This document shows positions 16,295 to 64,000 of a stretch of DNA of 64,000 nucleotides, in pieces. Location of the stretch: positions 11,038,501 to 11,102,500 of the forward strand of contig OZ019759.1 of NCBI GenBank assembly GCA_947034885.2. The letters run 5' to 3'. The position numbers were made by a program, and so were the translations under genes. The number at the start of each line of letters is the position of its first letter. Within the stretch, counting starts at the first letter, position 1. The DNA comes from Thuidium tamariscinum. Its lineage: Eukaryota; Streptophyta; Bryopsida; Hypnales; Thuidiaceae. Below the pieces are notes generated by a model. It did no database searches. It was not told the DNA's origin and saw nothing but the letters and a program-made list of their open reading frames with translations.

Positions 16295-16362
16295 TTCGAA
16301 GCTCCTGCGAGAAGCTGTTTTCTTCCTCCCAGTATAGTGTCGCGAAGTTCTATCTTATTACA

Positions 16363-16919
16363 ATGGCGGCGGCGAGGTCTTTCGTGAGGACGATGACGAA
16401 GTCGTCACCGAATTGCGTGGTCAGTTCATTACCTTGTTTGTGCGCTTACATTTCTGCCTGAGCTCCTTTTCGTACTCCACGGTGTTCATCGCCAACTGCT
16501 ATTGTCACGCTCTGTTCCTAACTATCGCAAAAGAGTGTCGTAATACATTTCCGTGGGAAATTCAGTGCTTGCTGGAGAGTTCAAAGAAGGGAGGGTGTCC
16601 ACTGTAGAAGGAAGTCTGTTTGGCGGAGTTTTGAAGCAATGCTGATGAATTTCTTGTTCTGTACTTTGCTTTGCTTGTCGCCAGACTATTCCCACGGAAT
16701 TTGTGCGCCAATTTGGCGACCGCTTCAAGTCGCAAGTTGAAGTGAAAATGTAGGATGGCACGCAAAATGTGGCGTATGAAAGTCAACGTCTACTACATGA
16801 AGAATAAACCGCATGTATCAATTGCCAGAGGATGGAAGCAGATGCGCTACTACTCCATCTTTAAGGGAGACACTTTGCAATTTACCCTTGCGCACTTCAA
16901 CGTCTTCGAAGTCACTCGT
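16363..16919 (+). pseudogene. B3 DNA-binding domain protein (REM-like), broken
   Basis: B3 domains are plant-specific DNA-binding domains of nuclear transcription factors. Exon 1 (16363-16419, ATG in a leader ending ATTACA) gives MAAARSFVRTMTKSSPNCV. A phase-0 intron with a polypyrimidine acceptor (CTTGTCGCCAG) leads to exon 2 (16685-16919). Joined in phase they give the B3 order: SFV..M, then IPTEFVRQFG, V.VKM.DGT, W.MKV, ARGWKQM, FKGDTLQFTL, FEVTR. Exon 2 has an in-frame TAG at 16751-16753 and a +1 shift in the AAAA run near 16764-16767, after which W and the rest read in another frame. A donor-like CGT|GTCAGG follows at 16919. Further exons are not secure. It is likely a pseudogene, unless the two lesions are sequence errors. 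Confidence 0.65.
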
Positions 16920-18740
16920 GTCAGGAACGCCGCATCGCAGCAAGGAAGCGCCGCCGCGCACCGCGTGCCCTGCACTCGTCACTCTTCACGATTTCGTGGC
17001 GTGTAATTGGAGGATGCATCCCCAATGCAAGGCTGTTTGACAAGCCGAATTTCCGTGGAAGGATATGCGGGTCCCAACGAAAGTGGAAGTCACCGGGGAG
17101 TGGAAGACATGCGACAGCGGGCTTCCGGGAGGTTCAAGAATTGGTGTACAGAGTTCGTCGTTTTCTGTAAGTAGTAATTACCGGTAGTTAGTTTTTGCAC
17201 CTGTAGGAGGTTCTGTAGATAGTTCAATACCCTTTCCTCGACTTTGTGAAGGCTTTCCTTTTTCTTGACGCAGGAGAAGTAGTCCACAATAGTATTGTGG
17301 ACGTTTTGAGGACTGAGACTGAGAGCTCTGGACTTTCAATTTGGTCTATTTTTGTAACCACCATGCACATTCAACATGCTTTGTTACCCAGTAATTTCAT
17401 GGTAGTACAAAGTCTACATATTTGTATTCATTTTGTATGCAAATGGAATTCTAAAAGGGCCGCCAAGTGTTGGGTTTCCATACTTGAACCCTACATACGG
17501 TAATCCAAGAGATTGTTTTACCGGCGGGTCAAAAAGTGAGTTGCTGCTAAAAAAAGAATTAGCAGTGCTTCTGAACTCTGTTTTCTCACAGAAATTTCAT
17601 ACACATATGTCACATCTAACTTTAGGGAAACTGCTGTGGACTGCACTTTGCCACTGTTGTGAACGTAACTATTTGCACTTGCACAGTGTAGAGTAGATAC
17701 TGCTCAACATAGAGCAAAATCACCGTGAAGTCACCTGTCTTTAGGTTTTCAGTTCCTTCCTGATTGGTGTTTTAACGACTGGGTGACAGGCTTTTAGTTT
17801 TTTTACAAGGAATTCTGTCCAGCCTAAACCCTAACAGAGACTGCTCTGGATTTGGAGGTGTCTTGACTCCTGATTCCCTCTTACTATATCCTATATGACA
17901 TTTGACGTATGGTTGTTGCAGTCCCCAATTCTCCTTTACAATTTCAATAAATTGGAAGCAATGTGAAACACTCACTTTGATTTACTGTATACATGTTTGT
18001 TTCCAAGGCTCCTGTCATGAAGTTAGTGCAGAAGACTGTAATGCTACTTGCTGACTGAAATGAAATATGAGTGTAATTGAGTTCGCCTGCCAGAAGGTGA
18101 TTCGAAGAGGACGTTTTTTACTTGGAGACACAGTTAGTATCGAAACAATTATGTGCACCTTCTTCAGTGGTTCGTGATAAAAGATTCATGCTTCCTTTGA
18201 ATTCATAGTTTCATGGTATATAATTCACATGATAGATGAGTGATGTACAACTTATTCAGTTGTTTGGGATAACAGATTCACGTTGACTTTCAATCCATAG
18301 TTTCACGGGTAGAGGTATGTAGACAAAGTTACACAGACGATGATGTAAAACGGCTGTTACTATTGTTTTATATTTATTTTTTGGTATGTCATTCACTTAT
18401 GGCCATGACAAGCCCTTCAGATGTTTGGAACCCTACAACGTGAACTGCTTTTTGTCATCCCTCGTTCTTTGATTTTTATTTATCTGAGACAATTCTTTTC
18501 CACAATCTTGGAGTCTTCTCATTGAATACTTGGAAGACCTCCAAAAAAAAAAAAAAAAAAAGGATACTTGGAAGAGCAACAGACATCGTTTTCCATGTGA
18601 AATTGCAGGTCCCACACTGTTCCTACTGACATCCCACAAATATGGAAGTCCAGTTCCCAATTCTTTTCCAAACACTGAACCTCAGTTCCACAGAAATAGA
18701 ACTGAGTACTCCTAAAAGCCACGACTCATTTTAGTTACTC
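16920..18740. other. Region downstream of the B3-type gene, no secure gene
   Basis: Coding-like patches occur at 17040-17170 but frames are short and I could not link them to the B3 exons. An A20 run lies near 18542-18561. No terminal-repeat element was recognised until the family-A copy at 18741. Confidence 0.4.
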
Positions 18741-19010
18741 AACCCCTAAAAGCCGAAGGGGTTAGGACAGAACAGAAATGTCTTATAAAATATAAGTGTT
18801 ACAACTTCATTTAAGTTATTACCAAAGAAGATAATGTAAGGCGCCAAAAGAGAAAGTATGCATACACTAAAAGAAAAAAAAATTATATTATTTTTAAATG
18901 TGGTCTAGAGTGAAGACTTCAAAAATTCTCCAGAAAAACAATTTTTATTCTTTGGATTTCAAATTTCTTGGGATTGGTGAAAGTTGTGTTTTTTATTGAT
19001 TCATGAAAAT
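18741..19010 (+). repeat. Family-A repeat, 5' part only
   Basis: It begins AACCCCTAAAAGCCGAAGGGG and follows the 14841 copy through GTTATAAAATATAAG-like, AAGAAGATAATGTAA and TTTTTATTGATTC motifs. It then stops, and a second family-A copy begins about 10 bp later at 19021. The two lie head to tail, the first lacking its right half. Confidence 0.7.
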
Positions 19011-19405
19011 TTGCCTAAGTATTCAACCTGTAGAATCCAAAGAGATTAAGACAACATACAAATGTGTTATAAAATATAAGGTTCACAACATTTTTTAACC
19101 CCTAAAGGACTAGAGTCCCCTCGGGGGACTCTTGAAATTTCGGGCAGGCTTCTGTGACCTGGATTTTTTCTATGATTTTTTGAAACTTTCTTTGAAGATA
19201 GGAAATCATGTTAGCTTTCTAAAAATGTAATTTTTATTTCAATTGGTGCTTGTAAGCAAAAGTCATGCCATTCAAAGTCCAAGAAGTAGTTCGCCGGGCA
19301 GAAAAAAAAACACAAAATATATATATCTATATATATTGTTTTAAAATTCTCAAATATTATGTTTTGTTCTACATCTGAAGCTTTGATTCATTTCATTTGG
19401 ACAAA

Positions 19406-22400
19406 TGTGAGCCCTGTCATTGTCACTTAGGCCTCAGATTTTTCTTTTTTTTGCTTATTGCTCATATTTGGGGTTATTATAGTTAAAAATCAACTAAAAA
19501 GAGTGGTTGTGATAGGATTGGTACAATTCCCGGTAATGATGAGGAATTGGTCGGAATTGCACCAGAGTACCTTAAAAGACTCTTTAGAGCCAACTTCTAC
19601 ATCTTATCAGGTGATTAGTTATACTATTACACGATTACGAGGAGATAGCACGAACTAATGCTCGACAGACAAGTTAGTGCAAAAGTGTCAAGATAAGCCC
19701 TATCGGACTTTTCAAGAAGAATCTTAGCAGAATTTGGCTAAGTGGAAGTCATGGGATTCCGGTAGTCACTCAAGAGCGTCACAACGAAGCTAACTCATGG
19801 AGATTCCCGTGTACAAGAATGATTCCTCCTCGGAGGAATTAACTCAACTCGTGAAGATCCCTTGTACGGGGAGGAATCCTCCCCGGAGGAATTAATTCCA
19901 CCCTAGTGCCATTTCTACTCTAACTAGACAGTGTGTGTTTTTAGCAGAACTTTGCACCTGTCATTAGGGGGCTTCCTCAAAGATCCCCTAAAAGTTTCGT
20001 AATTTTCTGGATTACGGAAATGACTCCATGGGAAGTCAACCGCTTTTACCGGCAATTGGAAATTCATAGAAAATTCCACGGTGATGGTAAAATCCCACTA
20101 AAAATTAGGATAGCATTTTTTAGCATAAATAAGCGTCCCGCCAAATTTCAAGACATTCTAACAGCGGCAAGTACCAGAACCAGCGGCGGCAATAACCTTC
20201 CAAGGTTTTACCGAAATCTTGGTGGGTTGACCGGTGTGTAAAGGACATATTGTGTCCGATTTGAGTCAACTTGGACTCTTTTCTAACATTCTTGGACATT
20301 CCCGACAACCCTGGCTAGTTAGAACCTTTGGAAAAAATCAATTCCAAAAGATAGATTTTCCACTCTTTTTACCGGTTCGTAAGTGTTAGCTTTTGGGCGC
20401 ATTTAGGTTCTGAGAGTGAGGGGTAGGGGTTCCTTTAGACTAAATTGGGTCTTCTGAAGCCATTGGCGCTGTCCGTTTGGCAATCGGACCAATTCTCCAA
20501 AAGATAGAGTAATTACAGCAGTAGTATAGAATTTTAAGATTAAAGTTGACTTTCTAGTTTACTTAGCAAGTAATTTGAGGGGGGAGGAGGCCTTGGAAAT
20601 GTATAAAAGGCCTCCCCCTCCCCTCACTTCAAAACACTCATTACTACCATTACACCCTTACAACTACACGATTCAATACCAACACCATTATTATCATCAT
20701 TTCGCACCATTTTTCTACATCATTCTCATTCCAGTCTATTCTTTTCTAGTTTACACCATCTTACAACCACCCTTGGGCTCCTTTGGCATTCAAGGTTCGA
20801 GATCTTCAAAGCCTTTCTTTTATTTTGCAATTGTTTGGATTGTGTGCTTTAAAACCGCTTTTGGTGTTTAAAACTCATTATTTGAGACATTGCTAGTCTC
20901 TTGAAGTTCAAGTAAGAGTCTTTTGCAAATTTGTGATATCATAATTCTTTGTGACTAGTCTCTTCGGGTGGATTTACAACCTGGATTGGTTTATCGAAAT
21001 ACCCCTCGGACCTAGCCATTGAATTGTGATCCAAGTGAGGATCTTTGGGAGTTGATTTGAGCTTCGGAATCTCATCATTAACAAGTTCTTGCAAAATTTT
21101 GCCAGAATTTGAGGATAACCCTCCAAGACGGTGAAGCTTTCGTCCTAGATCTCACACTCAAACAACAAATCCTCAAAGGAAAAGTGGTGTGGAAATTGCC
21201 CTCCCCTTGCCTTGGTTTGATTTATTTGTTATTCCAATTTGAGTTTCACTAAAGGGTCCCCAAAGGAGACCCTGGAGTTGTTTAAAATTGTGGCAACCAC
21301 CGCCGAATTTAAGTTATTAGTATGTGTTTTTGAGTCCAGGCCAAACTAGCCCAACTAGGCAGCCAGGCCGCAGCTCTCTCTCAGTAAGGGGCCAGCTCAG
21401 CCGGGCTCTCTCTCAGTAAGGATCAGCTCAGCCGGCTCCCTCTCCGGCCAGCCCAGCCGGCTCAGGCTACCGGTCCCTTCCCTCAAGGTCCTTGCCGGTT
21501 CTTGGTTGATCCCAAACCAGCTCGGATTCCAAGCCAGGCCCGGTTTACTAAGGAAAAAATCACAAGGGAAGGCCATCATGCCATGCCATCCAGAATTGTG
21601 AGTTTTTGAATACTGATTCTTTGTTTTGTTTTAGTCTTCCCCAGATTATAATCCTAGAGTATAAATTAGGCTTTTGAACCCAGAGGTTGAAGTTTAGTAA
21701 GTAGGAAGGACTGATTTTTCGTAGAAAAAAGATAGAAAAAAGGGAAATAGGAAAATTCCGATCTCTCACACTAAGAGATAATAGAGTCTAATATACCAAA
21801 ATCAGTGGTCAACCTGCGTTGACCAGCCCTCACACGTCCGTGGTAATACTAGAATCAACCAGTTGAAGCTTCCATACACATGCCAGTAGTTGCACATCAA
21901 TGAGAGTTTAATTGCAAAGTTTAATTTCAAAGAAGAAGGGCCTTGTTAGCCATCCTAATTACAAAAAAAGCCAGTCAAACTACGTTGACCAGCCCTTCCA
22001 TCACTCAGAGTCCCATGTTAGAGTCAGATGACCCGAGCTTCCTACTAGAAGACTGAAGCTTCTATCAATTAGAAAACTAAATTTCTAACAAGGACCCTGA
22101 TTTCCCACCAGGGGTCTGAACCAAGGCTCACTCACATTCAGAAATCTGAAGTCAACCCTCGTTGACCAGCCCTCTCACCACTGAGAGCTACCTGATCCTT
22201 ATCAGGACATCAGAACATTCTCAATTTACAGAACCGAAGCAAAGTCAGCCCTTGTTGGGCCTCGGCATTCAGTTGGGAAGGCTCTGGACCTGGTTTTGAA
22301 TGATTTGGACTTGATACTGAAGCTCTGATCTGGTGTTTGGAGCTCACAACCTGCACACACAACCTGGATTCGGGTTGCACCCAACTCAAGCTTCTAACTA

Positions 22401-23437
22401 CAAGTCTCACACAATTGGGAGTGGGAAATACAATTATGATTTAGAAGGGAGAGAGAGAGATGAAGGAATCTTGGAGCCATTTGACTTTGATAACCACGTT
22501 TTAGATTGACAAGAAAACAAATAGAAAAGACATGAAAAAGAATAGTTGACTTAGGGACAACTTAGAGGTTTTCTAATTTGGGGAAAAATTTAGAAACACC
22601 TAGTTGTAGGAAGGTTTGACTTTAAAAGCCATTTAGTTAGTAACCAAAAAAATTAGATTTTATTAGGATTTTGTATGTGTTGACTTTAGCCCTTATCGAA
22701 AGGTAAGGAAGGAAATTTAAAAGATAAAGAAAATATCCAAAAAGAAGAGAATATCAAGAAAAAAGAGGAACTATAGAAGCCTTGAGGTTCCAAGGACGTG
22801 CCAAACACCACCAAGATGGGCGCAAGATCATCAAATGGAGGTAGAGCTCACACAACAGGAAGAATTATTCGATGGACATGAAGAATTCGTGGTCAACATG
22901 CTCGAAGTAAGTCTCTAAACTCTCTTCTTCATTATTCTTTAAAAATTAGATTTACACCAAAAATTGCCTACAATTAGTAAAAAACTCACAACCTAGAAAA
23001 ATTAGACAAATCGTGACTTCTTAGTAGAAGCCAAGCAAGTTAGAAAATATTACCAATCAACAAGAACTAGAACTTCGATTTCAAAAAGGGTAAAAGATCA
23101 AGTTGTTATAAAATCGCTCAATTAAGTTTGGAAGCTGTAAGCCAAAATAATTAGAATAAAATAGAGTTAACCAAGAAATTACAAATCAATTATCTCCAAA
23201 AGATTTAACAAGAATTATTCCAAAACTGATAGATAGTAGCCAAGCCAGTGGGTAACCGTCCCCTACAGCATAAATTAGCCAACTCAAAAAACAAAGTAGG
23301 AGTAGCAGTAGAAAGATCCATTGCTTGGAAGGCAGAACTAGATTGCTCGTGATTAGACACCCACTAGGAATTAGACTTTTCATCATTGAACCCGGTTGTG
23401 TACACTTTATTCCAAGGGTGGGAATAAAGCGCCCACA
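19406..23437. mobile_element. LTR-retroelement fossil, 4032 bp, no intact genes
   Basis: The insert starts TGTGAGCCC and ends GCGCCCACA, with the TG..CA ends usual for LTR elements. It is flanked by a 5-bp duplication ACAAA (19401-19405 and 23438-23442). The uninterrupted family-B copy at about 2278-2300 confirms the empty site. A TATAAAAGG box lies at 20602, followed by a C/A-rich leader-like stretch as in plant Ty3-type LTRs. I found no second copy of that promoter and no gag or pol reading frame. It may therefore be a very long solo LTR or a non-autonomous or deleted element. It looks broken or non-coding; age cannot be set without paired LTRs, but it is younger than its B host. Confidence 0.75.
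21808..22330 (+). repeat. Degenerate ~170-bp tandem repeats inside the LTR-type element
   Basis: A marker GTCAAC..CGTTGACCAGCCCT recurs at 21808, 21974 and 22151 (spacing 166 and 177 bp), with a fourth weaker version near 22240. Between markers, GAAGCTTC-type motifs also recur. The marker contains a GTCAAC/GTTGAC dyad. Internal tandem repeats are common in non-coding parts of plant LTR elements. Confidence 0.6.
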
Positions 23438-24527
23438 ACAAATAATGAGAAAGTTACAGAGAATGGGCAATCTAAGCACCGTCTTCAAAAAATAACTTAT
23501 AGAATTCATTTTTGATTGCAATTTTTCTCATTTTTCAAATTTTCTTTTTTATTATGGTTAAGGATGTTTTCAAGAATAAGGTCACCATTGGGATCATGGT
23601 TTTTCAATTACATCTTAAAGTTATGAACAACTTAGTGTTTTGTTCAATCTTGGACCTACTTCTACTTAACAATTTTTTAATGAATGAAAATCAAGTATTT
23701 TTTTATGAAAGTTTTTTCCCCTAATTTCCAACTTCAATATTCAAAATAAAAAATTTTAACTTCATGGTCCATAGTGCAAAAACATTCAACAAATGGCAGT
23801 CACAGTCATCTGAAATTGCAAGTCAGAGTTCAAAAAAACGTTTTTTTCCAACTGTCAATGCTACTATCTTCCAATTCGTACGGCCAAACTTCATGAAATT
23901 CTTACCACATGATTTCAGAAAAGTAATTTAGAAGATCCTACGGTTGGATTTTAAGAAAATTGTTTTTTATTTTTTTTTAGGGAAGAAGTAGCAAACATGG
24001 CAGTTTTGAGTGGTTTCAAGCCAAAAAATGCCTCAGTCCTTTAGGGGTTACATTCGCATCAAATAAGATAAAGTGAAGCACAGGAAGTAGAAAGTATCCA
24101 TATGATCAAAATTCCTCAAAATATATATATTACATTCTAATCAATTTGGAAGATATAACTTCAAGAAGTCACCGAAAACACAATTTCTAATACTATGATT
24201 TGAAAAGTTTTTGCACTGCTCAAAATTGTGGTTCTCATGAATTTGTTAAAATTAAAAACTTTTTACTAACGACAGCATCTGCGCTTCCCCAAAATAGTAA
24301 GTTCTTCAACACTAAGCAATTCTTGACAGTTAGCACTATTTCTCCTTTTTTTTGCTATAACTGTTTTTGGACCGTACTGATCTTAGTTTTGAATATAAAT
24401 GTCGAAAGAGAACCCAAATTTCTTAGCACTGGGAAATGAAATTCGACTTTTTTTTTCCTTTGGCCTGGTAATTCTGCCCGAACTCAATGACCGACCAGGA
24501 AAGGGTCGTTTCATCGCTTAGGGGTTA

Positions 24528-25819
24528 ATTTTACTGAAGCATTACATCTTAGTGAAGGGAACTTCTGACTGCCTATTATAAGATCGAAAAATGCAAATTC
24601 TAAACTGGAAATTGGCATCGGACAACGTCACGTACGGTTATAACAGACCATAAGAAGATTGTTTGAAAGTACTATATTATTCAACCTCCACATGTCGTCA
24701 AATTGGAAGACGTAGCATAAGTGTAGAAACTGGAGTTTCTGTTCTCCGAAGATGGAATTTGTTGTAAAAGGAGCACATGTACTTGGAGAAGAAAATGATT
24801 TTCAATTCTCATTTTAAATTTTGTTTTCATGTTCTTACCAACTGAAGGGAACAAGAGCTATTTTCATTATATTTTCAAGTGTCTATAACATTTAGGAGAT
24901 AAATTCTTAGGTGTCAATACCGGAAGACATAATATTGTCAGTGGTAATCAAATTCTCCTTCTTTTTTTTAAAAAGAAAAAAATGTATTTGAAAGGGTCAT
25001 ATGACTCTAGAGACTCACTGATCTTGAGCCGTTTTGATGCAAAAAAGGTAAGTGTTTCTTCCAACGACCCCATCAATGTTGCATGGATTTCTTACCAAAA
25101 TCATAGCTGTTACACATTTTCGGTACCTAAGCTATTATTTTGTCAGTACATACAAATGAGGGAATGCTATTTCAATATTGTTTCAAGCATGCTTACAGAA
25201 ACACATATTTTTACTATATTTCTTTAAAGTATTGAATATGCTGAAGTTGCTTTAGTTAGAGAAAGTTTCTTCACAATTTTAATAATAAACGAATGCTTTC
25301 TATATCAATATATTTTGTGAAACTACCGTTCTGGCAATGGCTATATGTTGTTGTGGTAATATGGATTAATTTCAAATCTAAATTTCCAACTACAATGCGT
25401 GCAAACATTATACTTTCTTCAATACATTGAACCATTACGAGAACTTCCCTAAATAATTCATAAATGCTGTCAATAACAACTGACCAATTTTTAGTACTTC
25501 ATTGCTTTAAAGAAATACAGTTCAATATAAACAATTTGTAGTGCTGGAGTACGTTTAGTGTAATTACAACCATGTCCATAGAATACTAAATCTCAACATT
25601 GGAAGAATTAGTGCAGTCTTCAACATCCCCTGGAATTGTTCTCTAAAATTTTCCCCACTAATGTTTTGATGTTGTGTATTTCGAAAAAACTGAATTAATT
25701 AATTGATGCCCAAAAATTCTTAAAAAAACCATATAAAAGCAAGAAAATAATTTAATAAGAAGAAGTGTAAATTAAAATTAATTAATTAATTAATTAAAAT
25801 GACTTTGTCCTCCATTTAC
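24528..25819. other. AT-rich intergenic DNA, no gene seen
   Basis: No gene or defined element was found. A run of TTAA/AATT repeats lies near 25777-25797. The ORF at 24982-25227 is AT-rich with no recognised domain. Confidence 0.45.
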
Positions 25820-26483
25820 GTAATTTTTTTTTCACTACAGACCTTGAATTTAAATTTTTTTCTATTCAGAAATTGAGTTAGTCACTTAGGAAAAAAAATT
25901 CACAAAATACAGATTTTTTTTTCATTCTTTAAAAAATTGTGAAGTAGATGTAGGTCTAAAATTGAAAGAAAAACTGAATTGCATATGTCTCATAGAAAGA
26001 ATTGAAACACAATAATCCCAATGGTGAGATAGTTCTAGCAAACAAAATCAACCTTGTCCAACAATTTTTTTTGAAAAAATTTGAAATTTGCATTCACAAA
26101 TGAATCCAATAAGTTATTTTTTGAAGAAGATGCTTAGATTGCCCGAAAAACTAGATTGTTCATAACTTTCACATTACTAATCCAAATGGAATGAATCAAA
26201 TCTTGACTTGTAGACAAAAATAAAATCTATAAGAAAACAAAATTAATTTTTTAATTTTAAAGTTTGTTTGTATTTATTTTTCTGCCCGGTGACACGAAAA
26301 TTATGTTTAAGATGGCATAACTTTTGCTCCCGGCCACCAATTTTTAAAAAAAAATTCCACGGAGGTAATCATTCTTTCTATCTTATGTGAAAATTTCAAA
26401 AAAATTCATTAAATATTGAAGCCACAAGTACTTGCCCGAGTTCTTGAAGTCCTCCAAGGGGACTCTTGGTCCTTTAGGGGTTA
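25820..26483 (-). repeat. Family-B TIR repeat, reverse orientation
   Basis: Read on the minus strand it starts at 26483 with TAACCCCTAAAGGACC and continues with GAGTCCCC, AAAAGTTATGCCAT, CCGGGCAGAAAA, AATAACTTATTGGATTCAT and an (inverted) GGGATTATTGTG motif, in the family-B order. The far terminus near 25820 is worn and its limit approximate. Confidence 0.7.
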
Positions 26484-26897
26484 ATTAACATAGTAGCCAT
26501 TTTATATCCTTATTTTGACTTCAAGGGATAAACGACAACAGAAATGTAATTGTGTCATTCTTGTTTTTTTTGGTAAAAAATTGTCAATTTCTCATTCCCT
26601 TTTTTAAAAGGCATTCTGCATTCAGTTAAGAAGACTGTCATACATATTTTCTTAGTAAAAGCTAGAAGAAAGTTCCTTTTTCATACAGTGAATAAGGATC
26701 TGATAGCAGAATTTGTCATCCATGTCAATTTCGAGGAATTCAACTACTTGGAAAATCCCCCTTCACAGCACATTGCAGAAATCGAAGCTCAACGAATGAA
26801 ATGAAGGTTCTCTACAGTACTTTGTACTGAAATGGATATTCAGGGAGAGCTCTTCAAATATAATTTCTTTTTTTATACTCAACTTTAGTTACCTAAT
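26484..26897. other. Intergenic spacer between B and A copies
   Basis: About 410 bp of mixed sequence; no gene or element identified. Confidence 0.4.
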
Positions 26898-27721
26898 TCA
26901 CCCGTGAAAGCCCAAACGGTTAGGACAAAACACAAATGAGTTATAAAATATAAGTGTTAAAACTTCATTCCAGTTAGTATCAAAGAAGATAATGTAAACC
27001 AAAACAAGTAGGAAGTACCCATACAGTCCGTGAAAAAAAAATTTGGATTATTTGTAAATGAATTTGGAAGATATAACTTTAAGAACCTACCATAAATTGA
27101 TATTCTATTTTTAGGATTTGAATTTTCTTCTCTTGGTCAAAACTGTGGTTTCATTTATTCGTTAACTAATAAGAAATATTTATTAATGAGAGCATCAGTA
27201 CTTCCCCCAAATAAGAAGTTCTTGAACTCTAAGCAGTTTCATACACTTCGTACGATATTCCCTTTTTTTTGCTGTCAATTTGGTTTGATTGTGTAAGGTA
27301 CATACACCCAAAAGCGCCACTTATTCATATTGAGCCTAGTTCCTACTATTAATTAGTTCAAATTTTTATGTAGTCTAATTGGCAGGTAAAAGCATGTTCC
27401 AACGCACCAAAGAACACAGGATTTGGATAACGAATGCAAAAGTTATTAATAGTCAAAGTCTGTTTCTGAAAGCGCCATCTAAAGCCTGTGAACATGACTG
27501 ATTTCAAAAATGTATGTGCATTGTAGATGGCACTTTTAGGAACAGGGCGCTTTTGGGTGTACACACCTTAGATCTTAGTTTTGAATGAAGTTGTTGAAAC
27601 AGAGTCCAATATTTTCAGGTTCTGAAAAACACGAATTGCATAAAAGTTTGTTTTGTGGCCGAAAGTGCAGCCCGCAGTTAGTCAGCAATCATGAAATCGT
27701 GACCTCAGCACTTAGGGGTGA
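26898..27721 (+). mobile_element. Family-A repeat split by a TA-type MITE
   Basis: It begins TCACCCGTGAAAGCCC and ends CTTAGGGGTGA, with the family-A landmarks GTTATAAAATATAAG and AAGAAGATAATGTAA between. The order is broken at 27294-27570 by a 277-bp element and resumes with GATCTTAGTTTTGAAT, as in the intact copy (CTTAGTTTTGAAT). Less the insert it is about 547 bp. Confidence 0.75.
27294..27570. mobile_element. 277-bp Stowaway/mariner-like MITE
   Basis: Long terminal inverted repeats (about 24 bp, 3 mismatches) share the core TACACCCAAAAGCGCC at both ends. TA flanks each side (27294-27295 and 27569-27570), and the host family-A sequence closes cleanly if the element and one TA are removed. 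TA duplication and short length fit Tc1/mariner-type MITEs (Stowaway). Non-coding; the ORF at 27358-27564 is a by-product. Confidence 0.8.
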
Positions 27722-28929: not shown

Positions 28930-29400
28930 AAAAATATGAGAACATGTTAAGTAATGAATTTTTTTTTGCAGAATGCTTATTAATATTTATACATCTTCTA
29001 AATGGCGCCTACAGAGTAATTGATGAAGAAGACAATAAATGAACATATAAAAATTGTATTCAATCATAATATTCAAGTAGTTTTCTCTTTGTCTGAAGTT
29101 GTGCAAATACTATGAGAAAATGTAAATCGATGTAATAAAAAATTTTGCAGAATAATTCTGAATATTTATACATCTTATATCTTACAAAAGTATCCTATAT
29201 AGCAATTGATTGAAGAGGTGGGTAATAAACATATACATTTTATTTAGCATCTTCATGAGCATTTCATTATTTGTAAATCGAAGGTTGTATATACAATGAG
29301 AGAATGTGAATTGAATAAACACAGCACTTTGTAGAAGAAAACATCTTTCCAAAAAATCTTGCATATCAATTGATGCAGAAGACAAAGAGTGAACATCAAA
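28930..29400 (+). repeat. Three tandem units of ~180 bp
   Basis: Three units begin with an AT.TGAGA(A/G)(A/C)ATGT(A/T) motif near 28935, 29112 and 29293 (spacing 177 and 181 bp). Each continues through a TTTGCAGAAT/TTGTAGAAG motif, TACATCTT or CATCTTT, and an AATTGATG-AGAAGACAA motif. The period is close to a nucleosome repeat, as in plant satellites, but only three diverged units are present. Confidence 0.6.
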
Positions 29401-53830: not shown

Positions 53831-56403
53831 CATGTTTTGTTATAGTGATGGAATCGCGGCAATCGGTTGCTTCCTCCTCGGTCATATCGACCATTGCCGT
53901 CGCGGGTGCCTTCTGTAACGATACAGTGCTCGGACCTCCTGGGGCATTGTGCTCGATGAACAACGCACTGTGTTGTGGAACTTCACCACCTCGCCGAATT
54001 GGACTGGCGCTGCGACTTATATTGCCAGAAGGTTTGGTCTGTGCCACCATAAAAGACTTGAGCATTTCCTCCATGCGACTTTGTGATTCACCGATTTTTT
54101 CTTCAAGGCGTGAAACACTTTCTTCCATGTCGACAACACTCGTGCGAACCTCATCCATGTCTGTCCCCTACTGAAGTGCAGCCTTTCTCTTCTCCACTTG
54201 CTGCCGGGTATATTCTCGCGCGACTTTGTCGGTAATTTCGGTTTGGTAGGGCTTCCGACCGTGTTGTAACGTCTGCATGCAATTTGAACAAGTCACACAA
54301 AATTAATTTCTGCGGAATCTGCAGGACACACCTTTCCTGAGACTTCATGTTCTACACAGGAGGGCATCGACATACAAGACACCTGAACTCCCACACGATT
54401 CGGTTGCTCATACCTCTATGAACTGCATTACGATACTCTAGAATTTGCCTTCGATAAGAGCAAGGCGGCCATGAAGATGAACTGCAAAACACTGACTGTG
54501 ACAACAACTACTTGCTCATTAGAACTCAGTACAACATCATGCGTTTGAACAGAGCTTTACCAGCTTTACTATGGCATCTTTCCCAATGGCTTTCAACTAA
54601 GCCACCTTTGAACCTTTGCCCTGAGAAATGGACCTCATATGCTCAGACAAAATGTGAGAGTCCTCCGTGTTCCGTCGACGGACCAATGTGTTCCATTGCT
54701 CCTAGGTTACATCAGCAGGCTTCAACTGACCTGCATCGATTAACGTGTTCAATCTCCAGCGAGTGGTTATGAGCACCTTGGTAACAATGGGCCCAACCCA
54801 CTTCTCACTGAGTCTGAAAGATTGGCCTAGCATGTCCCAATCTGCATTACAACACTCCACACAACAATTAGTGAGTTCTCTGTTGCAACATCAAGTTAAA
54901 GGTTTAATTTGTATCTGCTATCAACAACGGTGTCACTATTGCCCGAAATGGTGTAAGGCGACTTCAGAAACGACTGAAGACAATACAGTAATCTAATACC
55001 ACACATCTGATTTCCTTATATGATAATGACGCACCGTGAACAGTAGACGACAACTACTGAGAATCCCATTTCAAACCTAGATGAAGTTCAACGCACCCTT
55101 GTACAGTCGCGTGAAAAGTTGCGATCTCAGAGGCGTTGGCTGGGACTCCCAATTTGCAGTGGGGTCCAAACTCTTTGTATACTTCTTTATGTCGTCAGCC
55201 AGGCATTCCTTCATGCTGCCCCAAGGTGCGCCATTGATGTCAAGCGTCACTAGCTTCTTCATGACTTTGTCCCGACCATGGTGACTTCGACCCACTCTCG
55301 TCGACCCTGTCCCAATATCATCGCTGCCATCGGAATGAGTGTAGACGCCATCTGTGTCGTCCTGGCTGCTAAAACGCGGTCAACACAGAAGCTAGGAAAG
55401 GTCAGTACATGTTAGAAGAAGTAACTCAGTACACTTTCTTTACCAAGAACCGAGTGTGGGGACATGAAGCACAACGTGCACGTTGTGCTCTTACTTGCAC
55501 TGCGAAGATGCAGATCCGTAGCAGTAGAGACTTCGACCAGTCACACATGACACTAAACTAACATCCTCTATGCAATTCGTTAGGCATGAATAGGGGGTGC
55601 ACATTGGAAAAAAAAGGGGCCTTCTGAGCTTGCCTGCAGCGTCAGTAGGATGATACGACGATCATGACAGAATTAGCGCTCTACCAACGACAAGAAGTGA
55701 TCAGTTCTACTACAAATTCCTAAAGACATGCACATACCCTTTAACACTATATCATGATGTCATGGTACATCCTCCTTTTCAGAATACCACTTGCATAAGT
55801 TGCATTGGCTGACACTGAATTTGCCATACTCAAGAGCATCGATGAGTTCTACTGTGGGATGCCGTTCAATTCAGGAAATTGTGACTACTCCACAAGAAAC
55901 TAGATGTCCACCATGACATCTGCACATGACAGTTGCAAATAAGATGTGCTGTACAAGACATCCCGAACACATTTTCCTACTCACTGCAATTGGATGCACA
56001 TCCACATCAACCACACACCCAACACTATGCAGACAGAAATGAAAAAGACATTAATTCACAAATACACTGAATAGACTAACCTCCAGTCACTGTCGTCAGA
56101 GGACTCATGTTGCGCCTGTGAATCTGAATTGGCACGGTCAACGAACCTCTGCTTCTTCGGCACATGTGTCTGGGCATGGGATTTCCCCTTTCCTTTGCCG
56201 GCATTGGAAGACAGCCGCTCATGACTTTGTTTACTTCTTTGTTCTGCGTCCGGTCGCACTTGCATCTGCTCTATGCGACAACAGTCCTTTGCGGGTACTC
56301 CGTCCGCTTTTGAAGACAGAACCTTCTTCTTCAGCGTTTTACTTCCACTGCCAGTCATTCTGAGTGCTGCTGTTGACCACTGAAGCGAACGCTGCTTCTT
56401 CTT
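53831..56403 (-). pseudogene. Transposase_24-type CACTA protein (TnpA-like), broken
   Basis: Minus-strand exons joined by phase: 56403-56081, 55368-55097, 54841-54606, 54272-53831. The first is basic and Lys/Ser-rich (TGSGSKTLKKKVLSS), a likely DNA-binding or nuclear-signal region ending SSDDSDW. The next three give the Transposase_24 (Ptta/En/Spm) order: LVTLDINGAPWGS, DPTANWESQP, LRSQLFTRLYKG, DWDMLGQSFRLSEKWVG, TTRWRLNTLI, EQWNTLVRRRNTED, then LQHGRKPYQTEITDKVARE. A coiled coil follows (MDEVRTSVVDMEESVSRLEE, then KIGESQSRMEEM), usual in these proteins. In-frame TAGs lie at 54704-54702 and 54170-54168. It is tail-to-tail with the plus-strand TnpA-like gene and divergent from TNP2. The start is not fixed; an upstream exon may be 57634-57320. 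The last exon ends at a donor (CATG|GTAAAA), so more sequence may follow. Confidence 0.75.
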
Positions 56404-57301
56404 CTACGCAGTTACGACATGCAAGAGAATGAGTTAGTGTCATACCATTCTAAGCTTGTTTTCAGAATTGAAAGCACGGTACACCATTGCATCGGTACAC
56501 CAGTACTTCTTCAGCCGAGACAAAAGACACTGACATCTTTGTCACTCACGATCCTTACTACAGTACGCAACAGGCATGACGGAAAGCAGAGATGCATGAC
56601 CGCCACTAAGCTCACTGTACTAGAAGACATCGCTATCACCTTTCTGAACGTCACCAATTCACAGAAAAGCATGACCAGCAAGACCTGGACTTGTAATTCA
56701 CAACAGTCCTGTGCAGGTAGCTGCAGTTAGAAAATGAGTGCGACTCTATGAACAACGTCCCCATAGCATACACATTCAACAAATTAGCTCTCCCACGCTT
56801 CTGGAAGCGCATGCGCTGCAGTACTGTAGAAAATTGACAGTCACTTCGTAAGTAAGCAGGACAGACTATGAGTCCAACGATTCCATCAAGCATCAGTGAC
56901 ACCGAAGTGTACACAACAAACTGGTACGTATGAACTACCTCAACTACTCACAGTTCGACTCCACAAACACTTGTGTCAACACTGATCAAACGCTACTTCG
57001 TGGTACAAAGAACGTCTGGAGAAACACGTTGGATGTTGCAGAAAAACTGAGAGGGATGAATACTTCAGTGCAAGGACCATATATAGACGTCATGCAAGAC
57101 TGCAAAAACTAGACAATTCCCTAATATCGCCTACTGATTCCAAGATGTAGCCTATGGCCGCAATGGCATTCCTACTTGCATGAGGTCATCTGATCACATC
57201 CACGGTTGCATTTCATGTGGTAATACGACCTGGAGTGTGTAGTCACACCACCTATGAAACAACAGGTACGCAACGTGGCATTGGCAAAGACGGCGGGTCA
57301 T

Positions 57302-57634
57302 TCAAGGCCCCATACGTACTGTTGGAAGTCGACCTAATCTTGCACTTGAAGTTGCTTCTCCAGCTAGTCTCTCCATGTCGCTTGCTCTACGCCTTGTTCT
57401 CCCTCCATTCCGCGAGCGCCATTGCGAAACATCAGTTCCAGACCGCTGTTCGAGGTTGGTGCGCCATGCACACCGAGGTCCGATCGCAACTTCTTCAGCC
57501 AGGTGCGTCAAGAAATTCTGGAATACCCTCACAGCAGCATCACTCACTTCTGTTTCAGCGTCTCCCGAGCACCCTGAACTCTGCGTCCCCTCTCCAATTG
57601 TCCCGACACTTTGTCGGAGACGTTCCACTTCCAT
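57302..57634 (-). CDS. Possible first exon of the minus-strand CACTA gene
   Basis: An open frame of 110 codons starts with ATG 57634, shortly downstream of a telo-box on the minus strand (AACCCTAATTTTC, near 57675-57690), as at plant gene starts. The protein contains DAAVRVFQNFLTHLAEEVA and an Arg-rich part. A donor-like ACA|GTACGT occurs near its end (about 57320). A link to the exon at 56403 is inferred from strand and spacing only. I do not recognise a domain. Confidence 0.35.
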   Translation of the reverse strand: MEVERLRQSVGTIGEGTQSSGCSGDAETEVSDAAVRVFQNFLTHLAEEVAIGPRCAWRTNLEQRSGTDVSQWRSRNGGRTRRRASDMERLAGEATSSARLGRLPTVRMGP

Positions 57635-57690
57635 GTCTCACTGACCACTGCAGTGCGCCAGCCTCGCAATCATGAAAATTAGGGTTAGCG

Positions 57691-58434
57691 AATGAGGACG
57701 GAATTCCGGAAAACAAAAGCAGTGCAGTTGTGACGTTACCTGACGCTGCGACACGTGGCATGACACTTGGGTCGCCATCCACGCCAACAAACGTGGAATG
57801 TTACCGTTTGCTTCATGTCTTTCGTGGCGCCGGAAGCTCTACCTGCACACACACTAACTCCCTGCTCTTTAATCAGTGCTGTCGATATGAGTATTGAATC
57901 CTTTAGTAAAACCAATTCCAAATTTCAAAGCGTCGCTGCCAATCTACGTCTGGAACACTGTTGCTGTCGCTTATGTACTACGCTTTCTTTCAAATTCCGC
58001 TCACTCCATGACAAGGAGTTCCTGTAGTCAGTACTAACGATGAGTATTCACATGTTTGCAGCAGGGTTTACCGCTACTTTCGAGCTACTACGATTATCTC
58101 TTCTGCAAGCTTTGTGTCTTTGAAGGAAAACTGTGAATACGGAACGCAACACCGTATTTCAAAACCCCACCTGCAGAGCTCAGGTCAGCCATACATGAAG
58201 TATTCACAGAAGTGTGGAACACTGTTTCCTTGAATTGATGGTTCTGTTAAATTCGCTGCCCATTTCACTCCTACTTAGGTCGATCCCGCACTTTTCTGTA
58301 GCGTCCTTGTTGTGAGAGCGGTGAACAATTTCCTCTTGGAAAACAAAAATGCCTACTAATTATCAGACCACATCAGTCCATTCTTATTAGTGCAACATTA
58401 TCGTTGTTTGTACAAGTATTGACATTACTATAGC
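57691..58434. other. Region between the minus gene and the 109-codon ORF
   Basis: No secure gene; it should hold the promoter of the minus-strand gene. Frames of 60-86 codons here overlap each other and show no domain. Confidence 0.35.
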
Positions 58435-58764
58435 ATGTTGTTTGCTGAGTTCGAGGATACGGATACAACAACTACCCAAGAAGATGAAGAGCTCTCGCTG
58501 TATTCCCAGTTCCAGAATTACGAAGCTGCGTATGCACAGTACTTACAGGACCTTCTCTTTCATTACATGGAGCACATGTCTTGGTATGACCTAGGCTTCG
58601 TGCGCATAAAAGATTTCATGCCCCAAACTCTGACTGAGGTTTACAACAACAACCTGTATTGCATGTCATGGTTCTACCATGGTGTTTTTCCCTTTGACTC
58701 TGTGGAAGAAGACTACGAGAACTGGCTAAGTGAACTAGTACTTTTAGACATGTTGAAGACGTAG
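58435..58764 (+). CDS. Hypothetical 109-aa acidic protein
   Basis: A complete frame from ATG 58435 to TAG 58762-58764 with protein-like composition: an acidic Thr/Glu-rich N-terminus (FEDTDTTTTQEDEELS), then aromatic-rich segments (YAQYLQDLLFHYMEHMSWYD, FYHGVFPFDSVEEDYENWLS). No signal peptide or membrane segment is evident. No splice sites are needed. It lies between the divergent minus-strand Transposase_24 gene and TNP2, so it could be a small accessory gene of the same element or an unrelated host gene. I recognise no family, and there is no clear TATA box. Being intact among broken neighbours makes it worth attention; chance cannot be ruled out. Confidence 0.4.
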   Translation: MLFAEFEDTDTTTTQEDEELSLYSQFQNYEAAYAQYLQDLLFHYMEHMSWYDLGFVRIKDFMPQTLTEVYNNNLYCMSWFYHGVFPFDSVEEDYENWLSELVLLDMLKT

Positions 58765-60101
58765 TGTGACGATCCATTAGCGTCTACACTATCGTTGTGA
58801 CCACTTAATTAGAATGGGAATAGTACATGAAATTTCTGAGAGTGAAGACCCGGGACATGAAGGGCATTCCGAAGCACCATATCGAGTCCACAGCTCAGAT
58901 TGCTATGACGAGTGGATAAATCGAATCCTCTGAATCTAAGTAGTGAAGTCACGTACGCTGCCTCCATGAATTAGGGTTCACGGTTCAGTGTGCATGTAGT
59001 GGGAAGTGAAGTCTGGTTCTCTGAAATCATCTTTAAAAGTGTCAAGTCACTTTGACAGATTGTTGATGGAACGTTTATTTATACTTCAAGAAAATGGTAT
59101 CTGATTTCATGGTTACCGAAGCTCTTCTTCTTTGAAACGTAGTGGATTGAACGTCCCAGGCTGCATACAAGTTCACGCTCCTGTTGCCGGTGCATTCTTA
59201 CTACGAACGCTACTCATGTGGAGATACTGCGAAGGTCAGCTTCGCCAATTCTGGTATTGTAAACATTCTTCTACAATATATACCTCAGTTCATTACATTG
59301 TAAGTGAAGGTTGTAGGAGACGTAGCTGCTTACGTGACGATATTCACAACATGATATTAAGCGGGGATTCATTGAACCCATGTCTGATAACCTGACAGTA
59401 TCTTGTGCGCCTCATATTTGGATTGAGTCACTGCGGACTAGGCTTTGTTTACGGTAATACTAATTCACCTCAGTTCTGTCACTTCTCTGTTCTGGTTTGT
59501 CTTAGTTGCTCCGAAGTGGCTCACGCTCGTTAATTTTGAGCAATTCCTTTAGGAGTATTTCGGTCTGTAAAGACGATTAGGTTTGCAACAGTACATTCAG
59601 TGATTTATTGAATCTTCGTCTGTGCCTCACAAAGGTGGCACCCTCTCAAGCTGCTTTGCTATGAAGCATATAACTTGTACTCTTGTAACATGAATTCCAG
59701 AAGTTCTTGGTACAGTTGTACAAAATTGGTAGTCATTTGGTGAATGAGGTTTGCTATGGAATAAATGATGCTAGGTTTAACCAGGATGTTCGAATTACAT
59801 ACCTAGTACTACTAGCCTAGAAGCGAACTTCTGTTGGGATCATCAGGTTCCACATAAAGCCGTACTGACCACAAATGATTGTGGCATGACTTAATCCATG
59901 GATTTTATAGGGTAACTTCCATGTCAAGGTGTACTGTAGTTTATATGAGGACTTCCAAACATTTGGTGCACGGTAGTGTGTACTAGAACTTCCTCACCAA
60001 GAATTCCAATTCACAGTTTTTGGAAAATCATAGTAAGCCTTCTTGTCATACTGAAGAGGGGGTTTTCAGGGTACACAGTTTGTGCATTTCGTAGCCCTAT
60101 A
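58765..60101. other. Intergenic, no gene seen
   Basis: Mixed sequence without recognisable exons, RNA genes or terminal repeats. The ORF at 59132-59395 has no clear domain and its start has no supporting context. Confidence 0.4.
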
Positions 60102-60428
60102 AGGTAAAAGGCTCTTAAATTGAATGGGTTCTAAAATGGTGCCCTACCTTAAATGTATAGTACTTGTACATGTTCCTTTTTCATAGCCTTTAGCAGTGTA
60201 CTAACAATGTACATTTTAGGTAGGGCACGATTTTAGAGCCCTATGCCCTTTCAACTTCAAAATTTGATAACTAATTCCACAAAACTCAAAAAAATATGAA
60301 ATGACTTCGGTTACATGTCAATTGTACTTGTCTTCCAAATAAAATGTACTGAGTTATATTTCTTGAAGTTCTACCTATCTCAAATTCTGTTTCAGCCCTT
60401 AGGTGGTCCATTATAGGACCTCTTACCT
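60102..60428. mobile_element. 327-bp TA-flanked MITE containing a second inverted repeat
   Basis: The outer ends are imperfect inverted repeats (AGGTAAAAGGCTCT on the left, AGGTAAGAGGTCCT when the right end is read in reverse) flanked by TA at 60100-60101 and 60429-60430, fitting a Stowaway/mariner-like MITE. Inside, 60126-60157 and 60210-60241 form a 32-bp inverted repeat with 3 mismatches around a 52-bp loop. Non-coding. Confidence 0.65.
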
Positions 60429-61295
60429 TATACTCTTGTAGGCACCACATAGTACCTCAAATTCGAAGTTCGATACCGAGGTGTACATCTTGATATTTAA
60501 GGTGTTCCAAATGAGTACTCTATATTGTGTTGAAGAAAGAGGTCCAAAATTATTGAATGCATGCGTATCCTAAACCAATGTTTCACCTCAGCACGGTCCG
60601 AAAGCTCCGTTTCTGGTGATGGGTCCTACTTTTTTATTATGGATTTTGGGTGATGTCACCGTTGACAACCCAATATTTGTGTATGGACAAAAATGTCCCA
60701 GGCAACATTCATGTTAATATGAAAACATTGAGTTGTCAACGTCGATGTTCTGTTGGACATTTTTTTGGACAAAGCTTTTTTAGGTTCTTCCCGCTGACGT
60801 CACTTGAAATTAGCCATAATCAATTAGGTCTTGTCACCTAAAACATTGGTTTCTTATTTTAAAATAAAAGTGACTACATCACAAGTTACATATGAAGGTG
60901 TTGGATTTTAATTTTTCGTGAACTGGAAAGTGAAGTTTCATGTTTAGAGGAGTTGCATTCGTTCTATCATTCATGCGCATTCAAAATGAGCATATTCTTC
61001 CACGTCATGCTCAAGAGGGGAGGTAAAAGTAATTGACGTTTAGCATTACCAACATCCATGTCTTATGTTGTGATCCTCTTATTTTTTAAAAATAACTTGC
61101 AATGCGAACAATTTGAAGCAATGCCCTAAACCATGTACTCGTTTAATGGGGTATAGCAATTATTTTTTCACGTTAACCAGTACAATGACTTAAGCTTTTG
61201 TTTCATTTCATGATTGTGCAGGAATCAATAAGCATCACAGATAGTAATTTCAAGAGCTAGCACTTAAAGAGAAGACAAGTTGCACGTTTGAAGAG
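60429..61295 (+). promoter_or_regulatory. 5' flank of the TNP2 gene
   Basis: About 870 bp between the MITE and the TNP2 start. Short dyads occur (GTTGACAACC near 60661 and GAGTTGTCAAC near 60730; GGACAAAAATGTCC at 60686-60699). In CACTA elements this zone would hold subterminal repeats and the 5' terminus, but I found no CACTA end. A polypyrimidine-AG site (TGATTGTGCAG) about 75 bp upstream of the ATG suggests a leader intron. Confidence 0.35.
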
Positions 61296-64000
61296 ATGAG
61301 TTCGAATATAGGAGATCAGCGAGCACATATAAGCTTCAGTACCGATGGGCGAGCACTGAGGCACATTCCTGTTGGAGATTTGATTCTACAAACGGAGCTT
61401 TGAGTGGCAACTGAGAAAGATGTTCGATCGTTCAGGTGTCCTTGTCCAGATTGTCATGGTGGACAACGGAAAACTATTGAAGTTATACGGAAGCATCATA
61501 TAGCTGTGGGTAGGGATCCTTTTCTTTTGAAGTCGATGATAGGTGGGGATCCCATAGATGGTTATCTTGCACGCGGAATCTGGGTGGAAGATGACGCATA
61601 TGACAATGATGTTGTACATCCTGCTTCAAATGAAGTTGCCCCACCAGCGGAGGCAGAGGCTTCGCTATTGCATGGTACTGAACCTGCAGTGGACGGTGTA
61701 ACTAATGGCCCTCTGGATGCACATCATGAAGTGCATCGTCAAGTAATGGAGGCCTTTGATCGAGGAGATGCCTTGCACATCGAGGTTGGTGATGCTATAG
61801 ATGCTGAAGAGAATGATGAAGCCGGTAGTGACACCATTGATGGATTGGAGGAACTATATGAACAAGCGACTACGGCAGTGTACCCTGGGTCAAAGTGTAG
61901 CGTTGTTTCTGCTACAATAGTGATCATGAATATGTGTACCGTGTTCAGAGTTAGCAACAACTTCACAGATGAGTTGTTGCGGTACCTGTCCACAGATTTG
62001 TTGCCAGCACACAATAAGTTGCCAACATCGCATTATATAGCTCAACGAAGTATACGGAAATTGGGGCTGAACTACAACAACATACATGCTTGTTCTGATG
62101 GGTGCGTGTTATTTGAAGAGGAGTATGCGGATTTGGACAGCTGCCCGAAGTGTAACACGTCACGGTGGATTGAAGGCAGTACCTCAGTTCCCGCCAAAGT
62201 GATTTGTCACTTTCCGCTCATACCTCGGTTGAAGCGTATGTGGAGGTCTGTTGAGATCTCCAATATGCTGACAGGTTATACGAAGCATGTAAGTACCGAC
62301 GGTGTTATGCGATCAGTTGTTGATAGTCCTGCTTGGAAGCATGTTGACACTAACCTAGTTTTTGGGAACTTCGGGGCAGAGAAGAGAAACATGCGTCTAG
62401 CACTAACTCTCGACGGGGTGAATCCTTTCAAATTGAGTAATACCAACTGGTCAACGTGGCCAGTGTTGATTCTCATATACAATTTTGAACCTTGGTTTGT
62501 GACAAAGAAATTCTTCATTTCGTTGTGCATTTTGATATCAGGAAAACATTCACCAACAACCAAAAGTATGGGTGTTTTTATAAGGCCTTTACTGAGGGAG
62601 CTCAATGAATTGTGGAAAGGCGTTTGAGCATTGGATTTCTCTAAACCTGAAGGCACAAGGAGCTTTCTGCTACGTGGGCTTCTACTGTGGACGATATCAG
62701 ATTTTCCAGCATATGGTCTTATATCAGGCCTTTGTTGTAAGGGTTACAAAGGGTGTCCACCATGTGGACCTGCAACTGATTCACGCATGGCAAGGACTGG
62801 AGATGTCCTGCAAGGTGGAAGGACGAGAGGGTCAAAAATAGTTTATGGTGGCATCCGACGGTATTTACCACGGCACCATCCGTACCGTCGGAATAGGAGC
62901 TTCAATGGAGCTGTTGAAGATCGTGAGCAACCACAGGTAGTGTCTGGACAACAAGTCATATAGTACACAGCATGGCGCCAAGCGTATCTCAACATGGGAG
63001 GAAAAGAGAATGGAAAAGACGATCCTGTGCACATTACGGGGGTGAAATGGTTGTGTGCATTGTACGATCTCCCATATTGGCAAGTATGCAGTCCGTCCAA
63101 AGTACAAGTCCAAAGTTCATTGTTGAGAATAAGTAATGGATCAGGGTTTAACGTGAACAGGAGTTGGAACAAAATGAACATGTGGACCAAGATGTCTTCA
63201 AAATAATTCCGTGTGCTTCACTTTGTTTCAAAGTTGCTCAGTAATGCTTTGAGCAATGTTCATGTTTTCTGAAGACTTCGGTGGTTCAGGTTCTGAAGCA
63301 TTCTAATTTGTGTTGTCCACGGTATTTACTCATTAGGCATTTACTGGACGTCATGCACTGTGAGAGGAATCTCTGTGAGAACATCGTGAAGACATTAATG
63401 GCTATGAATGATAGCGCCGGAAGTCAGGATTTACAAGACTTGGGTATTCACGAAGAATTATGGCTACAAGCATCAGAGCGTCCCAATGCACAGTACTTCA
63501 TGCCCCATGCACCATATGTTTTGAATGTTGAGGAGCGGAAAGAGTTTGTCAGTACCATATCAAATATGCGTACACCAACAAATTACGTCGGCTCCATTCA
63601 CAAACGCTTAGTGGATGGCAAACTACAATATATGAAAACACATGATTACCATGTCTTGATGCGGCAGGTGCGTTGCATGTTCGGTTCGATACCCGGAATG
63701 GAATCACTTGAATGAAAAGCAGATGTTGAATGTACTGATTTAGTTATAAGAATTTGCACAAGTACTTGTACATTTTGAAATTGAAGGAATGATACATAAT
63801 GAGTGAATCATTAAAGGAAACACTGTTTTATGATGAAGTTCCAAAAGGTAATGTCACTGAGAAAAAGGAAGCTGCACAGTACAATGCAGTCGAGGGCTTT
63901 TTCCTTGTCAAAGTATGCTTACTGTGTACTACATTCATGTGTTTGCAAGTGCTTCCAGTGGCAGTGCACAACGTTTTAGATGAAAATGTGCGTTCAGCCA
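61296..64000 (+). pseudogene. TNP2-type CACTA transposase, broken and cut by window edge
   Basis: TNP2 is the catalytic transposase of En/Spm (CACTA) DNA elements. From ATG 61296 one frame runs to a donor at 63083 (TGGCAA|GTATGC), then an intron to 63289, then exon 63290-63667. Domains in order: transposase-associated Cys motif (FRCPCPDCHGGQRK, 61434-61475); C..CVLFEEEYADLDSCPKC; VICHFPLIPRLKRMW; SPAWKHVD; MRLALTLDGVNPF; WPVLILIYNFEPW; LLWTISDFPAYG; GVKWLCALYDLPYW; then LIRHLLDVMHCERN; then the start of the DUF4218-type region (THDYHVLMRQ). Its continuation LPVAVHNVLDENV is visible at 63952-63990, but the 63667 donor phase does not fit it. In-frame stops: TGA 61401, TGA 62625, TAG 62961. The gene is non-functional as read; the 3' part lies outside the window. 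Confidence 0.9.

Follow-up and report, generated by a model that had tools for sequence, protein, structure and literature searches.

CACTA elements and their probable methylation-linked decay

Mutation linked to cytosine methylation is known in plants (PMC8145854, PMC5175322): in Arabidopsis lines, as described in the first of these sources, methylation is enriched at mutated bases in the CG and CHG contexts (H being A, C or T), and CCG methylation is described as lower in plant heterochromatin (PMC5221884). Among CACTA (En/Spm) transposons, families of 16–20 kb in Chondrus have been called significantly enlarged (PMC6431247). Here we describe a 64,000-nucleotide stretch of the Thuidium tamariscinum genome (C11:11038501-11102500, hereafter the window), in which coding-like frames are interrupted by stop codons. 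An account made from the sequence alone (the sequence-only reading) had taken these frames for silenced, methylated genes decaying by C-to-T change. The decay pattern is supported, but the sequence matches and junctions assign the frames to a pair of nested CACTA transposons, elements no. 1 and no. 2, and not to ordinary host genes. It is highly probable, judging from the mutation pattern, that the host kept both elements methylated at CG and CHG and that the stops arose by deamination.

The contexts affected are the same as in the Arabidopsis lines (PMC8145854) and a deficit of change at CCG matches the lower CCG methylation described for methylomes (PMC5221884), although here, unlike in the Arabidopsis work, nonsense codons and comparison among paralogous copies are the sole sources of the pattern. 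Element no. 1 resembles other CACTA elements in its CACTA ends and 3-bp duplication, and element no. 2 in its transposase gene tnp2; in contrast to the enlarged Chondrus families described at 16–20 kb (PMC6431247), element no. 1 and six relatives span 54–116 kb.

In-frame stops and the codons they replaced

All ten in-frame stops recorded in the sequence-only reading are where it placed them, on the strands it named (seven TAG, three TGA and no TAA). Its list was nevertheless incomplete, an in-frame TAG at 54599 (minus strand) having been overlooked; this codon is CAA in all five relatives and hence required two changes. Relatives are copies from the same genome (363 Mb in 19 contigs, the eleven contigs with matches being 17.5–54.2 Mb long), aligned site by site, and the replaced codon was judged from the nearest copy without a stop. 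The proposal that the stops derive from CAG and CGA holds for nine of the ten, which are CAG (six) or CGA (three) in the nearest stop-free relatives, one C-to-T change away in each case; at 61401 the nearest copy is CAA and the source codon was judged from the next-nearest. It fails for the tenth, the TAG at 54170 (minus strand), with a source codon, AAG, that is neither CAG, CGA nor TGG and an A-to-T transversion. Under equal rates, the chance that nine C-to-T stops would all fall on CAG or CGA is 0.0002 with TGG included and 0.005 without it, the convertible codons (CAA 54, CAG 51, CGA 21, TGG 27) having been counted in frames that were roughly drawn, several of them running too far or shifting out of phase near their limits.

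The individual sites differ in how uniform the relatives are. The TAG at 16751 is CAG in four of five relatives and GAG in the other, the TGA at 32571 is CGA in all three, and the TAG at 54704 (minus strand) is CAG in the nearest three of five and CAA in two. For 50028, five distinct copies have CAG, one has CAA and two are ambiguous; for 50130, two distinct copies have CAG and one CAA. Within tnp2, 61401 is CGA in 15 of 24 aligned copies, and 62625 is CGA in 14 of 29, AGA in 8 and other codons in 7. At 62961 three of 29 copies have CAG, including the two nearest stop-free copies, three have TAG, and the rest have mostly CGG or CGA. This codon is thus TAG in four copies (the window, L010, L013 and L019), and in at least one it apparently arose independently; L012, the copy nearest to L013, has CAG where L013 has TAG. 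At 48723 the nearest copy also has TAG and the single other aligned copy, represented by two overlapping loci, has CAG. Apart from 48723 and 62961, every stop is found in the window alone among the copies compared, once chance alignments of no more than a few dozen bases are disregarded.

Two of the TAG codons, at 50028 and 48723, lie in splice-like settings, as would be expected if the stops were artefacts of exon–intron structure and not products of decay, and the coding status of these two sites appears less certain. However, at each of the ten sites at least one relative has a sense codon, which disfavours such an artefact for at least eight of them and makes it a very improbable explanation of the set. 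The idea that several TAG stops are splice acceptors or donors was dropped in view of these sense codons, with the caveat kept for 50028 and 48723. The TAA that ends a frame at 47550 is matched by a stop in four pairwise-aligned copies (TAA in L040 and L042, TAG in L044 and L045), although the multiple alignment instead gives CAA for the L042 copy; because relatives carry stops there too, it was not scored as decay.

The expectation that TAA would be rarer in further copies as well is borne out. Across 30 copies of the tnp2 frame, including that of the window, there are 43 gap-free stops and 11 beside gaps; merging one shared stop and losing two to a gap in the nearest copy leaves 40 gap-free events, comprising 22 TAG, 13 TGA and 5 TAA. 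For thirty-one of these (TAG 19, TGA 8, TAA 4) a single step from the nearest sense codon suffices, and nine require more than one, among which the window's 61401 is counted since its nearest copy is CAA. The single-step routes are TGG to TAG (12/294), CGA to TGA (7/320), CAG to TAG (4/70), CAA to TAA (2/214), TGG to TGA (1/294) and others (5), and CAG is converted more often than CAA (p = 0.034). The two TGG routes differ from one another (12 against 1 of 294, p = 0.003). In sister and outgroup copies of the genes at 46–50 kb and 32 kb, CAG to TAG is seen at 8 sites (two beside gaps) and CAA to TAA at one, a count that excludes the frame end and sites 48204, 49097, 49481 and 49662, which need more than one step and two of which are TAA.

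C-to-T change by cytosine context

Because methylated cytosine deaminates to thymine faster, CAG (CHG) would turn into TAG and CGA (CG) into TGA, while CAA (CHH) would seldom give TAA. We sorted the cytosines of both strands by their ancestral context and polarised changes by requiring the nearest copy and an outgroup to agree. An excess at CG and CHG had been anticipated from the sequence alone, and on the window branch the per-site C-to-T rate in these contexts is five to eight times that at CHH in two independent gene families. In the 5.3 kb around tnp2, changes are found at 20/251 CG, 11/222 CHG and 12/1200 CHH cytosines (p = 9e-9 for CG and 0.00025 for CHG, each against CHH), and changes of all kinds at A/T number 14/2781. 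In the stretch of the 46–50 kb gene the counts are 12/172, 10/160 and 7/786 respectively (p = 1e-5 and 1e-4). The nearest copy's own branch gives similar figures, with CG 20/248, CHG 13/235 and CHH 17/1221 in the tnp2 stretch and CG 12/172, CHG 12/167 and CHH 8/790 in the 46–50 kb gene.

The same analysis was applied to 25 of the 30 tnp2 copies, L014, L018, L030, L035 and L038 being dropped for want of a near sister and outgroup. Copies resident on C11 have changes at 83/1382 CG, 70/1164 CHG and 46/5686 CHH cytosines, and copies on other chromosomes at 35/826, 39/472 and 57/3386. The overall rate ratios are 4.7 for CG/CHH (3.2–6.6 by bootstrap over copies) and 5.9 for CHG/CHH (4.5–7.9); the pooled copies are related, so that p-values are approximate and the bootstrap is the safer guide. 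By trinucleotide, CAG changes at 50/668 and CTG at 47/668, with a deficit at CCG (12/300 against 97/1336 for CAG and CTG together, p = 0.04), whereas CAA, CAC and CAT change at 19/1448, 22/1153 and 22/1680. The least mutable context is CCA (5/1290).

C-to-T changes predominate everywhere (480 of 735 terminal changes), and an ordinary C-to-T bias without methylation, with TAG and TGA following from codon supply, would account for this and for the lack of a significant excess of CGA to TGA over CAA to TAA. It is difficult to reconcile with the observation that CAG changes five times as often as CAA, CAC and CAT (50/668 against 63/4281), from which it differs in the third base alone, or with CHG equalling CG on the C11 copies, and we regard it as quite improbable. 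Repeats also decay by C-to-T change under repeat-induced point mutation or through a cytidine deaminase acting on duplicated DNA. Repeat-induced point mutation favours CpA, but here the rate at CpA depends on the base that follows, since CAA, CAC and CAT change at 1.3–1.9% and CAG at 7.5%. The B3-domain family is known as plant-specific, and the B3-domain match in element no. 1 argues against a fungus; a process of this kind is extremely improbable.

Several observations weigh against loss of transposon genes through deamination of methylated CG and CHG. All five relatives have AAG at 54170. Over the 30 copies the rate of CGA to TGA does not significantly exceed that of CAA to TAA (p = 0.33), and the commonest route is TGG to TAG, which the sequence-only reading brought up only in its refuting condition. 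In the window-branch tnp2 stretch, 344 of 2017 cytosines are unclassed because their neighbours are unsettled, and more are in the other sets. The two short duplicates at 16.3 and 32.2 kb show a weaker bias (CG 14/260, CHG 9/105, CHH 14/648, pooling window and sister branches), and single copies scatter: L013 has CHG 8/65 but CG 1/88, and L032 has CG 0/40, CHG 0/30 and CHH 2/190. Transversions of C are somewhat raised at CHG (10/1636 against 19/9072 at CHH), hinting that some sites are mispolarised. Finally, a Pfam scan of 37 of the 116 open frames of at least 75 amino acids in the portion of element no. 1 inside the window (61%) revealed no transposase; of the element's left 34.7 kb, 257 bases were read.

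Two nested CACTA elements and a family of giants

Features of the window and the seven giant elements are collected in Table 1. Element no. 1 is 88,544 bp long as a whole and has terminal inverted repeats beginning with CACTA at both ends. Its left junction reads GCGTATG, then CACTATAACAAAACATGGTAAAAAAAGACC (also written GCGTATG / CACTATAACAAAACATGG), and its right junction reads TTATAGTG, then ATGGAATCG, so that ATG stands on either side; the uninterrupted C2 copy of the target reads GCGTATGGAATCG, with a single ATG. The second gene of element no. 2 matches places adjoining tnp2 copies elsewhere in the genome. Whereas the copies on C2, C6 and at C11:5.44 Mb have it uninterrupted, in the window it stops short at 53848, and its other half is found at C11:11003510-11003803. 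From the junctions, the split gene and the uninterrupted copies we conclude that element no. 1 is a CACTA-ended insertion with an ATG duplication. Element no. 2 is placed among CACTA elements through its transposase, two open pieces of the tnp2 exon matching Pfam PF02992 (E 1e-30 and 5e-21).

Table 1. Coordinates of features in the window (window positions) and of the giant elements (contig positions).
Feature	Coordinates	Strand	Size	Evidence or content
Giant CACTA element no. 1, right-hand 61%	1..53847	+		ends and ATG duplication read directly; target continuous in insert-free copies
Decayed B3-domain gene exon, element no. 1	16679..17003	+		TAG at 16751; 1-bp indel relative to sister at ~16764
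Gene of unknown family, element no. 1	32520..33065 (left limit approximate)	+		TGA at 32571
Multi-exon gene of unknown family, element no. 1	46320..50150	+		TAG at 48723, 50028, 50130
Right terminal inverted repeat, element no. 1	53741..53847	-		ends ...TTATAGTG; 94% identical to left end over 107 bp
ATG, one copy of 3-bp target duplication	53848..53850	.		junction read
CACTA element no. 2, host of element no. 1	53848..64000 (runs past window)	.		sequence matches
Second gene of element no. 2, cut at 53848	53848..54854 (limits approximate)	-		stops 54704, 54599, 54170
tnp2 (Transposase_21) main exon	61302..63094	+		stops 61401, 62625, 62961
Probable further tnp2 exon	63322..63680	+		conserved block beyond stretch unmatched in most copies
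Giant (element no. 1, whole)	C11:11003804-11092347		88.5 kb	duplication ATG
Giant	C11:5704424-5820809		116.4 kb	duplication TTC
Giant	C11:5550433-5623271		72.8 kb	duplication AAT
Giant	C11:9587517-9641398		53.9 kb	duplication TGT
Giant	C6:1800149-1886424		86.3 kb	duplication GAA
Giant	C5:29037664-29107339		69.7 kb	duplication AAG
Giant	C1:18276192-18367984		91.8 kb	duplication ATG

The genome contains 88 forward and 93 reverse occurrences of a 21-base end pattern, and the reversed control gives 0 and 0. Positions were taken for the first 100 places listed; the giants are the facing pairs, read at both junctions, that could be made among the ends listed, several others of which are without a partner there. 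There are at least seven giants of 54–116 kb, on four chromosomes, with common ends and with matching 3-bp duplications in all seven. Four mid-size facing pairs (23.7–28.4 kb) were also read, of which three have matching duplications and one is off at one of three bases; the 100 ends also form 11 facing pairs of 76–362 bp and two pairs of about 4 kb. Since three outward-facing neighbours are likewise separated by 23–47 kb, spacing by itself proves nothing, and the evidence for the units lies in the target duplications.

The giants share genes as well as ends. DNA of the 46–50 kb gene matches inside all seven, with the first matched stretch 7.5–10.4 kb from the same end; no match to it on C2 is among those listed, and C2 holds three of the four mid-size pairs. 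Matches to the B3 region lie inside five of the seven and matches to the 32 kb gene inside three, and among the best matches listed for tnp2 DNA none is inside a giant. The 95–97% copies at C11:5.40–5.82 Mb might have reflected an inverted segmental duplication, but this was rejected for the copy of element no. 1 there, which is a separate insertion because it has different flanks and its own TTC duplication. We somewhat favour the interpretation that this is a family of giant CACTA elements that moved as whole gene-carrying units of 54–116 kb with transposase supplied in trans, and that now erodes by deamination at methylated CG and CHG.

Alternatively, the giants could have started as CACTA elements of ordinary size that grew through later nested insertions and did not move at their present size. 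The two nearest copies are indeed unequal (88.5 and 116.4 kb), with probe spacings that differ by kilobases, and a sister copy contains a 365-bp CACTA-ended insertion. However, the 46–50 kb gene is matched at a similar distance from the same end in every giant, two differently flanked copies share the B3, 32 kb and 46–50 kb genes, whose order is conserved across 37.5 kb of the window, and the smallest of the seven is still 53.9 kb. Swelling as the whole explanation is possible but rather doubtful, and part of the giants' length may come from later nested insertions. The 365-bp insertion, in L040/L043 opposite window position 49898, has CACTAGAACAAAACATGG ends and is apparently a small non-autonomous relative.

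Other features of element no. 1 were noted in the window. The sister copy L089 of the B3 exon matches the Pfam B3 family (E 4e-7; score 30.3 bits, cut-off 30.1), and the window's own two pieces of this exon give no Pfam match when scanned alone. Matches below the cut-off to FBA_2, Fungal_trans, DUF5732, DUF4637, Ribosomal_L33 and 7tm_3 were taken as chance, and Rfam and ARAGORN scans of the window gave nothing. Tandem repeats with units of about 350 bp and 74 bp are present at 7533–8513 and 30889–31232. The observed/expected ratio of CG is 0.33 in positions 1–8000 and 0.72–0.78 from 40 kb on, and GC content is 31% in the first 8 kb and 43–45% from 40 kb on; positions 1–8000 are perhaps an older, more decayed part. 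With regard to chromosomal distribution, 25 of the 41 tnp2 matches listed, some being pieces of one copy, are on C11, which at 17.5 Mb makes up 4.8% of the genome, and four of the seven giants are also there; C11 is a transposon-rich chromosome that perhaps does not recombine.

A proposed history and its relation to other large elements

In the history we propose, the giant and its inner genes would have moved as one unit, and the enzymes that moved it may have come from other copies. Both elements would have been silenced and methylated at CG and CHG, as the mutation pattern suggests, the CHG mark probably being laid down by a chromomethylase-type CHG methylase, and their frames would have been lost through deamination. 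The stop at 48723, common to two giant copies at different sites, suggests movement by enzymes from other copies, although the same site may have been hit twice. Pfam DNA_methylase (PF00145) is matched at 27 places in the genome, distributed over eight of the large contigs, counted by exon and some of them possibly repeats; some of these places are in long open frames, others contain stops. Four Radial_spoke_3 matches in the genome suggest a plant whose sperm swim, and its 11 large chromosomes would be in keeping with a moss. A search for YABBY gave no match, an outcome that carries no weight as a sign of absence.

In size class and in carrying extra genes the giants are like Teratorn (PMC6431247) and like Starships, but the giants here have CACTA ends, and the Pfam matches, from a scan of 37 of the 116 open frames that the window holds of element no. 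1, include no viral or tyrosine-recombinase family. No report of CACTA elements of 54–116 kb in plants came out of a limited literature search, which is slender ground for calling them novel. The decay is known biology, and the giant family looks like a new variation on a known element type.

These observations indicate that the methylation history of a genome can be read, without a methylome, from the stop codons acquired by its dead transposons, down to the CCG deficit. If the giants moved at their present size, a classic plant transposon would have its size range extended several-fold, and plants would have a carrier for whole genes on a scale comparable to that of the fungal Starships.

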